Below are positions 2,170 to 5,779 of a DNA stretch of 32,612 nt, piece by piece (the first letter of the stretch is position 1; each line of letters opens with the position of its first letter). Below the pieces are notes generated by a model that was given only the letters and a program-made list of their open reading frames with translations, had not been told where the DNA came from and did not search any database. The stretch is from contig CAUJIW010000142.1 in assembly GCA_963205175.1 (NCBI GenBank), forward strand, positions 1 to 32,612. Direction: 5' to 3'. Made by a program: the position numbers and the translations under genes. This DNA comes from Pseudomonadota bacterium (lineage in GTDB: Bacteria > Pseudomonadota > Alphaproteobacteria > Sphingomonadales > Sphingomonadaceae).

Positions 2170-2733
2170 TCAGTCGGCGCGACGGACGTATTCGCGTTCG
2201 TAAACGTTGACCACCACCTTCTCGCCGGTCTCGATGAACGGTGGCACCATGACACGCGCGCCGTTCTCCAGCTTGGCCGGCTTGTAGGAGGAGGCCGCGG
2301 TCTGACCCTTGACCACCGGATCGGCCTCGGCGACCGTCAGCGTCACCTGCTCCGGCAGCTTGATCGACACCGCGCGCTCCTCGATGGATTCGATCACCAC
2401 CGGCATGCCATCGGCCAGAAAGTCGATCTCCTCGCCGAGGATTTCCGCCGGCAGGGTGATCTGCTCGAAGGTCTCGGTATCCATGAAGGTCAGCTGCTCG
2501 CCATCGCGGAACAGGAACTGGTAGTCCTTGGGGTCGAGGCGCACCCGCTCCACCGTCTCCGACGAACGGAAGCGGTTGTTGCTCTTGCGGCCATCATAGA
2601 CGTTCTTCAGCTCCACCTGCATGTAGGCGCCGCCCTTGCCGGGCTGGGTGTGCTGAATCTTCACCGCCCGCCAGTGCGAGCCTTCGAACTCGATGATGTT
2701 GCCGGGGCGGATGTCGACGCCGCTGATCTTCAT
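2170..2733 (-). CDS. efp: elongation factor P
   Basis: This translation factor relieves ribosome stalling at polyproline stretches by entering the E site. It has 187 residues and the three-domain EF-P layout. The exposed loop reads QPGKGGA, with Lys33 as the expected site of modification (usually lysyl-type in proteobacteria). The C-terminal half holds the conserved [14 protein letters not shown] stretch. I chose ATG 2733 (protein begins [11 protein letters not shown]) because this is the universal family start. A frame upstream to 2817 is open but not conserved in composition. A promoter candidate lies just upstream. The polyproline-rich N-terminus of the neighbouring metzincin-like protein would be a plausible client, though this is inference. 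Confidence 0.97.
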
Positions 2734-2770
2734 GGGATTGCTCTCGCGATGATGGATTTGGTCGGTCGCG

Positions 2771-2799
2771 GCCATAGCAGGCGCGGCCGGTGAAAGCAA
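2771..2799 (-). promoter_or_regulatory. candidate efp promoter
   Basis: On the minus strand TTGCTT (2794-2799) and TATGGC (2771-2776) are spaced by exactly 17 bases, giving a start near 2764 and a leader of about 31 bases to the efp ATG. This supports the 2733 start over any upstream one. Confidence 0.5.
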
Positions 2800-2874
2800 C
2801 GGACGCGACGCGCGCACCCGTTCTTCCCGCCCGCCGGCACATCCCGACCCCTGCTCCGTCGGCCTGGCGGCGGC

Positions 2875-2909
2875 AAAAAAGGAGGGTACGGACCATGCAC
2901 GGCCCGCAC
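2875..2909 (-). terminator. rho-independent terminator after the metzincin-like gene
   Basis: On the minus strand GTGCGGGCC pairs with GGTCCGTAC (9 bp with two G-U wobbles) around a 6-base loop, followed after a 5-base gap by six T residues (complement of 2875-2880). It lies 40 bases after the stop at 2949 and separates this transcript from efp. Confidence 0.6.
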
Positions 2910-2948
2910 CCCCACGACCGACATCATTCCGGTCAGTTACGGGCCACC

Positions 2949-5186
2949 TCAGGCAACCTGCCGCCGCTCGCGCCCCGGCTTGTCGCGCGCCGCGCGCAGA
3001 TCGGCTGCCTTCTTGCAGGCATCGCCCATCTTGCGGGCGTCGGCCTTGTCGCCTTCCTTCTCCAGCCAGTCGCTGTAATGCCCGGCATAGTAGAGGAAAT
3101 CGACGCCTCCCAGCGTCTCCACCGCCAGCCGGGTGTCACCCAGCGCCTTGTCGAGCAGCTTGCGGGCGCCATCATGGTCCACCTTGGCAAAGCGGAAGCA
3201 CTTCGCCTCTTCCTGCCCGGCCCGCGCCGCCTTCCAGTCGAGCGTACGGAACCGCCGGCTCCTGGGCGTCGCCAGGGTGATGGCGGCATGGATCGCCGCC
3301 CGCGACTTCGGCAGCTGTTCCATCACCCGACGCCAGGCATCAATGCCGCTCTCCAGCACCATCGAGCCATCGAACGCCATCACCCGGCCGGCATCCTCGG
3401 TGAACACGTCCTGCGCCAGATGCTGCTCCTCGAACGAGCGCGGCGGCGCCACCCGGATACGCAGCGGGTTGGACATCAGCTCCTGGCCATTGGCCTCCAG
3501 CGCCACTTGCAGCGTGTAGTTGCCTGGCTCGTCGATGTGCCAGCCACCCTCGCCCACCGCCACGAACAGGCTCTCGGTCAGACTGTCGCCCGGCTGCAGC
3601 ACCCGCCCGCGCGGCTCGCGGCAGTGGTGGGCGAACGGTCGCCACTGCCTGGCCGCCTGCCCATCGCGCTTGGTGATGACCAGCATCTCCTGGGCGTCGG
3701 CGAGCAGACTCTCCGGCACGATCCTCGGCTCGGTCGCGCGGTTGGTGATCCGCAGCTCGACGACCACCGGTTCCATGAAGTCATAGTGCGGCTTGTCGCG
3801 GTCGATCCGCAGCTCCAGTTCCAGCTCGCCCGCGCCATCCGGCTGCTCGAAGCCGTGGTGGTCGAACCAGTCGGCGTTGCCCATCTCGACGAAGCGGCTC
3901 GGCGCGTGGCGCATGAACAGCATCTCGGGATTGGAGAAACGGAACTGGAAGTCGGCGAAGAACGCCTGCTGCCCCCCCGCAACCCGGACCGGGTAGTTCA
4001 TGAAGCTGCGCGCTTCACCGTCCGCCGCCAGCGGAATCCACGGCGTGCCGAGGTTCTTCTGCCAGCTGTGGGCCAGATTGAAGGCGTGGCCCATCTCGTG
4101 GATCATGGTCCAGAACTGCATCCGGCGCTTCCAGGCGTCGGGCGCCGGATCGCCCCCCGGCGCGACGTTGATGAAGCTGTCCGTGAACAACGCCGTGCCC
4201 TGGCGATGGTTCGGGCCGATGGAATCAAACATGATGCCGCCCAGGCCCGAGCCCATGTCATGCTGCCTGGCGGTCAGCACCCACATCGCCCATTGCGACC
4301 TGTCGGCGAAGCGCGACCAGTAGACCTGCATGGCGTCATGCATTTCCGCGTCGCTCCAGGTGGTGTTGGTGTCCGCGCCATCGCTGGGGATGGCGCTCAC
4401 CGCGCCGTTCACGCGGACATCGAAGCCCGCCCGCTGAAATACCTTGGTCGCTGTCAGTGTCTCGGCCCCGAGCGATGCCGGCCGGTTGGGATGCGCCGTG
4501 GTGTTGATGTCAAGCACCGGCGTCGCCCCGACCTGGTGATCGAACTCGAACTCCACCTTGTGGAAATAGCTCGACACGAAACCGTAGGTCCGGGTGCGGG
4601 TAGCGCCGCCACCGGCGAACTGGATGGTCACCCGCCGCTGGTTGGGGAACAGGCTGCGGATCACCGTGATGTTGACATTGGTGAACGGAAATCCCGCCGT
4701 GTCGCCGTCCTTGAACCAGATGGCGCCGGTGTAGCTGTTGCTGCCGGTACGGGTCAGCGAGGCGATCCAGTGGGTGCGCATGGTGAATCGGCGGAACAGC
4801 GTGCCGCTGGCGGTCATCTGCGGATAGCGGCCGTCGACGTCGAGCCGCAGTTCTTCCCGGTTGAACAGGATCGGCAGCAGCGCCTCGTCGGTCGCCGCCT
4901 CCGTCTCCAGGCCGGTCGGGCTCGGCCCCGGACCGGGCCGCGGCGGGATCGGCAGGTCGGGATGGATGGGCAACGGCGTCGGAATGGGCCGGACGGGCAG
5001 GTCCGGCACCAGCAGCCGCTGGCTCCACTGATACAAGCCGCTGGCGAACAGCGGCAGGGGCAGCCTGGGGGTCAGGCGGTCCGCCGGCGTCAGCTGGGTT
5101 GCCGTTTCGGGATAGTAGGCGGTTTCATCGAAGCCCGCGTCGGCCTCGTCGCCATATCCGTTCTCACCGTGTTTGATGTCGGTCAT
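2949..5186 (-). CDS. putative metzincin-like zinc metallopeptidase
   Basis: I do not recognise the family, but the 745-residue product has a clear zincin site. [11 protein letters not shown] occupies residues 363-373, giving three zinc-binding histidines (363, 367, 373) and Glu364. SFMNYP at 394-399 looks like the Met-turn that defines metzincins. The usual Gly between the second and third His is Asn370. No signal peptide or membrane segment is seen. Residues about 59-95 are rich in proline, about 100-330 look beta-rich, about 430-590 contain a beta-sandwich-like stretch, and the last 130 residues are helical and charged. The start is ATG 5186, with GGAGA about 8 bases upstream; the open frame continues to 5459 without support. 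It follows a 99-residue gene in the same direction and ends at a terminator. Substrate, location and export route are unknown. Confidence 0.75.
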
Positions 5187-5323
5187 CGTCGTCTCTCCAT
5201 TATCTGGTTGGGAACGGGCGCGCGAACATGAGCGCGCCAGCGCCACGCAACGACGTGGAGAGACTTTCGATAACGGGCCTTCCGGCGATAACCGATCGTC
5301 AGGCGATGCCCGGCGGTTCCGGC

Positions 5324-5623
5324 CTACATATAGCGAAACGGCTCGGCGGACGGTCGCATGATGACCTGCCCTTCGGCGCGTTCCACGCCGACATGGCTGA
5401 CCGACTGGGTGTCGACGGTCGTCTCCGCGACCTCGCCCTTGTCGGGCAGCAGGATGCACACCTTGTGCGCGCCCCGATCCAGCTCGATCTCGGCACGAGC
5501 CGCGAAGCCGATCTCATAGCGGGTGCGCACGCCGCGTCGGTCAAACACCGCGCGATCATCCACCAGAACGGTCACATGATCGTCGGCAAAGCCTTCCTGC
5601 AGATCCACGGTCAATACAGGCAT
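5324..5623 (-). CDS. small protein of unknown function upstream of the metallopeptidase
   Basis: This 99-residue protein is not recognised. Its pattern of short alternating hydrophobic strands with turns (for example VTVLVDD, EIELDRGAHKVCILLP) suggests an all-beta fold resembling a PEGA or Ig-like module, but that is a guess. It has a single cysteine and no signal peptide or membrane helix. The start is ATG 5623, with GGAGAG 5 bases upstream, a stronger ribosome site than the upstream in-frame ATG. The same GGAGAG-type site precedes the metallopeptidase 137 bases downstream, so the two are probably co-transcribed. It could be an inhibitor, adaptor or folding partner of the peptidase; nothing in the sequence decides. 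Confidence 0.7.
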   Translation of the reverse strand: MPVLTVDLQEGFADDHVTVLVDDRAVFDRRGVRTRYEIGFAARAEIELDRGAHKVCILLPDKGEVAETTVDTQSVSHVGVERAEGQVIMRPSAEPFRYM

Positions 5624-5720
5624 ATCTCTCCACCACGAACGCACGTGCTACCGGCTCCCCCCCGGAACCAGTTCGATGCGACCCAGATGGTCTGTTTTTG
5701 TCGTTTGGCTGATGCTTGCG

Positions 5721-5751
5721 CTTATACCACAGCGGCCGCACGACTGCCGCT
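5721..5751 (-). promoter_or_regulatory. hairpin and -10-like box between thiE and the 99-residue gene
   Basis: AGCGGC (5731-5736) and GCCGCT (5746-5751) form a 6-bp inverted repeat 30-50 bases after the thiE stop, and TATAAG (complement of 5721-5726) follows on the minus strand. The hairpin has no T tract, so it is a poor terminator. The -10-like box lacks a good -35. Either element could separate the thiE and metallopeptidase transcripts. Confidence 0.25.
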
Positions 5752-5779
5752 GTTGTTTCGCCGGAGTCTTGATTAACTC

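Follow-up and report, generated by a model that had tools for sequence, protein, structure and literature searches.

What do the two adjacent genes at positions 2,949 to 5,623 encode, and what would the small product do for the large one? We approached this question within a window of 32,612 nucleotides, the whole stretch of DNA analysed, from a member of the Sphingomonadaceae. A sequence-only reading had described two same-strand genes with equally good ribosome sites, and this description holds: both frames are open on the minus strand, are separated by 137 nt, and are each preceded, on reading the sequence, by GGAGAG ahead of the ATG (Table 1). The pair had also been regarded as self-contained. 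This stands on the 3' side, where a predicted terminator lies downstream of the peptidase gene, with a 14-pair stem at 2913-2882 and then CTTTTTT. On the 5' side the unit is not demonstrably independent, since thiE lies on the same strand 156 bp before the start of the small gene and no terminator was found in that interval.

Table 1. Features of the two-gene unit in the window, with the Krumholzibacteriota loci used for comparison.
Feature	Position	Strand	Basis
Metzincin-like metallopeptidase gene, 745 aa	2949..5186	-	open frame; relatives in many genomes
Pro-rich N-terminus, residues 1-108, probably disordered, without signal peptide	4863..5186	-	pLDDT about 20-25; hydrophobicity screen
N-terminal beta domain, residues 109-205	4572..4862	-	seven predicted strands, moderate to low confidence
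Catalytic region, residues 206-445	3852..4571	-	conserved block with invariant residues; profile match to MMP-14, ulilysin, serralysins
Zinc motif (ligands and general base), residues 363-373	4068..4100	-	H363, E364, H367, H373 invariant in 19 sequences
Met-turn SFMNYP, residues 394-399	3990..4007	-	M396 invariant in 19; Y398 invariant in 8-sequence set
Ig-like domain, residues 452-590	3417..3833	-	better-modelled part; structural matches near Ig-fold background
Helical C-terminal domain, residues 591-745, perhaps TPR-like	2952..3416	-	predicted helices; weak TPR matches
Small partner gene, 99 aa, eight-stranded beta sandwich	5324..5623	-	open frame; model pLDDT 89; homologues beside peptidase relatives
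Ribosome site GGAGAG, peptidase gene	5193..5198	-	sequence
Ribosome site GGAGAG, small gene	5626..5631	-	sequence
Intrinsic-terminator-like stem and T run, after peptidase gene	2882..2913	-	14-pair stem
AAA+/peptidase loci of G451, G753, G754	L003:5873-10301, L058:6818-10361, L059:8313-11900		

We identified in the large protein the extended zinc motif HExxHxxG/NxxH/D and, after 20 intervening residues, a Met-turn methionine, M396 in SFMNYP, confirming the zinc site and Met-turn pair from which the sequence-only reading had recognised a metzincin. In an alignment of 19 family members, drawn from bacteria and one archaeon, H363, E364, H367, H373 and M396 were invariant, and the position that is Gly in canonical metzincins was either Asn or Gly, with Asn in the window protein. 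The motif alone is modest evidence, since a bare HExxHx5H arose in 117 of 100,000 residue shuffles of the peptidase (about 0.1%); its invariance in 19 members is strong evidence. A family profile searched against the PDB matched MMP-14 (E 5e-4) and ulilysin (E 5.5e-4), and additionally myroilysin and serralysins; the peptidase as a single sequence had no match there. In Pfam, the window protein remained below the curated gathering scores of both Reprolysin_4 (18.1 bits, cut-off 22) and Reprolysin_3 (17.7 bits, cut-off 22.4), other family members reached E 2.6e-5 with M12B/Reprolysin-like models, and all the Pfam matches of family members were to zinc-peptidase families of the metzincin kind. 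No named family model passed at its cut-off for the peptidase, neither protein had a match in NCBIfam, PHROGs or PADLOC, and Peptidase_M43 was absent from the Pfam lists of eight members (E 0.1) and of 19 members (E 0.01). The NCBIfam Mep72 model was matched by one distant member of the 19 (E 7e-4) and not by the window protein, and the earlier view that no named peptidase family fits is thereby upheld. Judged by these motifs and profiles, the large protein is very probably a metzincin, and the family to which it belongs is, on the same sequence grounds, a metzincin family without a name.

Structure prediction contributed little to this assignment. The AlphaFold2 model of the peptidase, built from four sequences, had a mean pLDDT of 48, and ten-residue means across residues 201-450 of about 23-59, too weak to show three His around a zinc. 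We likewise set aside an identification of the catalytic-domain fold by structure matching: the weak model found structural matches only over residues about 446-594.

Two named groups come closest. Ulilysin, of the M43 pappalysins, is the best prokaryotic profile match, with a likeness that extends from HEIGHWLNLYHIW to FMNY and includes Asn at the Gly position and a Tyr after the Met-turn. A Tyr two residues after the Met is a zinc ligand (the "tyrosine switch") in unbound astacins and serralysins and has been proposed as such for ulilysin, and mirolysin has Asp at the canonical Gly position of its zinc motif (PMC6949598). However, secretion as zymogens, a Cys switch and disulfides characterise the M43 pappalysins, whereas the catalytic region of the window protein contains no Cys and the M43 model does not find it. 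The M12B reprolysin-like peptidases (ADAMTS, Pfam Reprolysin_3/4/5) are the closest group in Pfam, and the aligned stretch of ADAMTS-4, TAAHELGHVFNMLH, has the same Asn, although the window protein falls short of both curated cut-offs.

The peptidase consists, in order, of a Pro-rich and probably disordered N-terminus, a beta domain, the catalytic region, an Ig-like domain and a helical C-terminus. The best VIA-align match of the Ig-like domain was the propeptide of AsaP1, a zinc endopeptidase (Z 9.0, rmsd 4.2, 123 aligned residues), and the fourth was the intracellular proteinase inhibitor of Bacillus subtilis (Z 8.0, rmsd 3.7, 112 aligned), both with Z values little above those of unrelated Ig folds. 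Despite this shared fold, the domain differs from BsuPI/IPI inhibitors and the AsaP1 propeptide in lying after the catalytic domain and in having no significant sequence match to them: a profile of the domain found nothing significant in the PDB (arrestins E 0.12, AsaP1 E 0.79), and BsuPI in Pfam gave no match. The Ig-like domain and the helical C-terminus probably serve to position substrates or partners. We found no signal-peptide-like N-terminus in a hydrophobicity screen of twelve core members, and the only Cys residues of the window peptidase (522, 663 and 724) lie outside its N-terminal and catalytic parts. The missing signal peptide and the Cys-free catalytic region suggest that the peptidase is cytosolic, unlike its secreted relatives; it would either stay in the cytosol or exit by a non-classical route. 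The disordered N-terminus also led us to consider the peptidase as cargo of an injection system, an idea not adopted; we noticed no secretion apparatus at the loci that were inspected.

We investigated the distribution of both genes. Relatives of the peptidase at 48-54% identity were present in a Krumholzibacteriota MAG, an unclassified bacterium, an alphaproteobacterial MAG and the genome G1072; relatives at about 26-40% in the genomes G450, G995 and G1060, and in plasmid-collection records of Rhizobium, Nonomuraea, Embleya and Arthrobacter (the last with a broken frame), these records being the only representation of Actinomycetota; and more distant relatives in other bacteria and in the archaeon Halocatena. 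Within Pseudomonadota, the family was found in 4 of 398 genomes, the window's own included. Of 15 core loci, eight, spread over several phyla, have the small gene together with the peptidase, and at seven of them the two genes directly adjoin on the same strand, which supports the earlier claim that the two genes form a real unit. It stands upstream of the peptidase in the window and in G451, G453 (where the contig carries the N-terminal part of the peptidase), G450, G1072 and G1202, and downstream in Rhizobium pRL9b4; at the eighth locus, in Arthrobacter StoSoilB13, about 0.8 kb and an ORF on the opposite strand separate it from the peptidase gene, which follows on the same strand. We found no small gene at the loci of G452, G1060, Nonomuraea, Embleya, G753 and G754; at the G995 locus, one side is cut by a contig end. 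The expectation that close homologues would keep the small gene was thus borne out in part: eight loci have it, and G452, whose peptidase is about 50% identical, does not.

Beyond these loci, the small gene was found in none of the 298 other Pseudomonadota genomes sampled (299 with the window's own), and it is single copy wherever found. An extra copy in Arthrobacter NicSoilB11 adjoins the junction of a mirrored record, where its neighbour cannot be judged; this plasmid record (NZ_AP024658.1; L036, L041) looks like a mirror image of itself, its two ends carrying the same genes in inverted order, and is possibly an assembly artefact. On a tree, whose several long branches make the details unsure, possession of the small gene requires six changes and is no more clustered than shuffled labels, indicating repeated loss or transfer. 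The small gene is specifically associated with the peptidase family across phyla, as a characteristic and not an obligatory companion. No third gene is conserved at all loci, and the one recurrent neighbour, an AAA+ gene, was confined among the loci compared to Krumholzibacteriota.

The predicted fold of the small protein offers few clues to its function. Its resemblance to transthyretins (VIA-align Z about 7-7.7) is within the usual background, with a best Foldseek E of 0.015, and we rejected the fold as a functional lead, as the top VIA-align rows, HGSNAT (Z 9.1, rmsd 2.8, 92 aligned), PepT2 and the transthyretins, are generic beta sandwiches. There was no match in Pfam, and no sequence or clear structural match to known inhibitors. 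The profile searches of both proteins that had been proposed in the sequence-only reading therefore place the peptidase family near MMP-14, ulilysin and the serralysins and link the small protein to no solved inhibitor. Five residues (G11, F12, T34, G39 and A41) are common to all nine small-protein sequences, and conservation is highest in the loops 11-12 and 34-41. The C-terminal tail PFxYM is semi-conserved in core members (PFRYM, PFHYM, PFRYA, PFLYL) and varies in Rhizobium and Arthrobacter. The hydrophobicity screen detected no signal peptide or lipobox-like N-terminus in this protein either.

The most informative comparison came from three Krumholzibacteriota genomes, in which an AAA+ gene (AAA_2 plus ClpB_D2-small) adjoins the peptidase. 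In G451, the AAA+ gene, the small gene and a peptidase with an intact zinc site stand together. In G753 and G754, the AAA+ gene is followed directly by a peptidase homologue in which HExxH has become HGLGD and the Met-turn SFMNDP; the small gene is next to neither, with the G753 contig ending about 330 bp after the homologue. Both of these frames are open and their proteins are 54% identical, and they thus look like maintained pseudoenzymes. Between G451 and G754 the AAA+ proteins are 85% identical and the adjoining peptidase homologues 35%, indicating that the peptidase has evolved fast or been replaced. Since the small gene was lost together with the zinc site, a co-loss seen at one locus type in three genomes, the role of the small protein is probably dependent on catalysis.

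We favour the interpretation that the small protein is the cognate inhibitor, or immunity protein, of the metzincin, and by analogy with known pairs give this a probability of roughly one half. The small protein, usually made from the upstream gene, would bind the peptidase and keep it from cutting the cell's own proteins, perhaps through the two conserved loops, G11-F12 and T34-G39-A41. Binding and inhibition are what we infer from the loci: neither protein has a signal peptide, and an active enzyme would therefore face cytosolic proteins, and loci of one type that no longer have the zinc site also lack the small gene. Against inhibition stand the homologues with intact zinc sites and no small gene, in G452 and in the more distant G1060, Nonomuraea and Embleya, which suggest that restraint by the small protein is not always needed.

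The sequence-only reading had named an inhibitor, an adaptor or a substrate. This list was right as a list, and the Krumholzibacteriota loci now favour those roles that are tied to catalysis. Joint loss with the zinc site would fit a dedicated substrate equally well, one cleaved, for example, near the PFxYM tail for release or activation; the tail is similar in core members, and there is a precedent in Listeria, where the metzincin Mtz and its small partner Tim are encoded by adjacent genes, occur as a pair across bacteria, and Mtz cleaves Tim (PMC8235301). Mtz is however secreted and Tim is a lipoprotein with a TIMP-like region (PMC8235301), whereas the pair described here has neither secretion signals nor a lipobox-like N-terminus and our searches revealed nothing TIMP-like in the small protein. 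As conservation also peaks in the two loops and not in the variable tail, we consider a substrate unlikely, though it is the foremost of the alternatives.

An adaptor, folding helper or activator on which the function of the peptidase depends, with the Krumholzibacteriota AAA+ protein as part of the same machine, would account for the recurrent pairing of the genes on one strand, in which the small gene mostly comes first, and for the position of the AAA+ gene beside the peptidase in three genomes. Such a role is rather doubtful, given that intact homologues manage without the small gene, and that the AAA+ gene persists at loci that have lost both the small gene and the zinc site and does not occur at the other loci compared. 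Two accessory genes without a functional link might simply have been transferred together; the patchy distribution of the peptidase within Pseudomonadota, its absence from sampled relatives, and the lack of the small gene at about half of the core loci are consistent with this. Chance companionship would nevertheless hardly be expected to make the genes neighbours in distinct phyla, between different flanks and in both orders (upstream at six loci, downstream in Rhizobium), with the small gene otherwise nearly absent, and we judge it improbable.

Known metzincin-inhibitor pairs give the preferred reading, inhibition, its model. bamI lies upstream of mep72, and BamI binds Mep72 and relieves its toxicity in Escherichia coli; AprI, a small, beta-rich and cognate partner, inhibits AprA (PMC4334185). 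The layout resembles that of Mep72-BamI, a metzincin with a small gene directly upstream on the same strand (same-strand adjacency extends to six loci besides the window), although Mep72 is secreted and carries carbohydrate-binding modules, features unlike those of the window peptidase with neither signal peptide nor Mep72 match, and BamI is predicted to be partly unfolded whereas the small protein here is a compact beta sandwich. The resemblance to AprA-AprI lies in the combination of a metzincin with a small beta-rich partner, in the serralysins found by the profile search and in the shared SxMxY form of the Met-turn. Unlike the pair proposed here, AprA leaves the cell through a type I system and AprI resides in the periplasm, and the small protein has no sequence match to solved inhibitors.

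If this reading is correct, the locus would add to the metzincins, most of whose known members are secreted, an unnamed and apparently intracellular family, and would supply a candidate for a new family of protein inhibitors. The Krumholzibacteriota loci offer a direct way of testing how the small protein is tied to catalysis. Pairs of protease and small inhibitor genes are already known, and the locus would represent no new kind of system, its interest being for protease specialists. In its widest form, the proposal would be a mobile protease-antidote module, made of a cytosolic metzincin and a beta-sandwich inhibitor, sometimes accompanied by a ClpB-type AAA+ protein, from which in some lineages a pseudoenzyme has shed the inhibitor and kept the AAA+ partner; taken as a whole, this remains speculative and rather doubtful.

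We additionally asked how the pair came to lie in this genome. We searched 59 genomes as relatives: the window's own, 34 more from the same family and 24 from the same order. Apart from the window, the one match was distant, 29% identical and in another family, and the pair was present in none of ten family genomes in which the surroundings of efp were read. The efp-thiE gap is about 0.1 to 2.5 kb in the nine of these ten genomes where thiE was found. The pair was probably inserted into a variable junction in this lineage alone, or else is a relic that relatives have lost. The same junction (window 2731-5779; L063-L072) holds other genes in some relatives, as in L064, where the gap contains a predicted L,D-transpeptidase-like and a peptidase-like ORF. 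GC3 of the peptidase gene (0.883) is at the level of its neighbours and that of the small gene (0.78) somewhat lower, values that do not decide on transfer, and foreign origin by base composition was set aside. Phage origin was likewise not adopted: the peptidase had no match in the phage collection and one distant relative in viral contigs (L021), and the small protein had no match.

We noted several further features of individual loci. On Rhizobium pRL9b4 (L006:34-7055), a ferritin-like (PF12902) protein with BNR repeats adjoins the pair, and divergent genes encode a LodA-like protein split between neighbouring LodA_N and LodA_C genes, together with an FAD-dependent monooxygenase and a radical SAM protein. 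In Arthrobacter StoSoilB13 (L010:7083-9708), a frame change and a TAG interrupt the peptidase homologue, which is either a pseudogene or affected by a sequencing error. G632 has two distant copies (L038:764-3869, L039:7916-10715), in which the parts before the zinc motif and the Ig-like/C-terminal parts are in separate overlapping frames. A protein kinase with TPR-type repeats is encoded near the peptidase gene in G452 and G450 (L004:3345-7535, L017:11642-14281), and may be there by chance, as kinases are common. Finally, a very large Pfam-less protein is encoded divergently beside distant peptidase relatives in two genomes (L009:441-7250, L018:8649-13796), and has 2268 aa in the Methylobacterium plasmid pLVM1.
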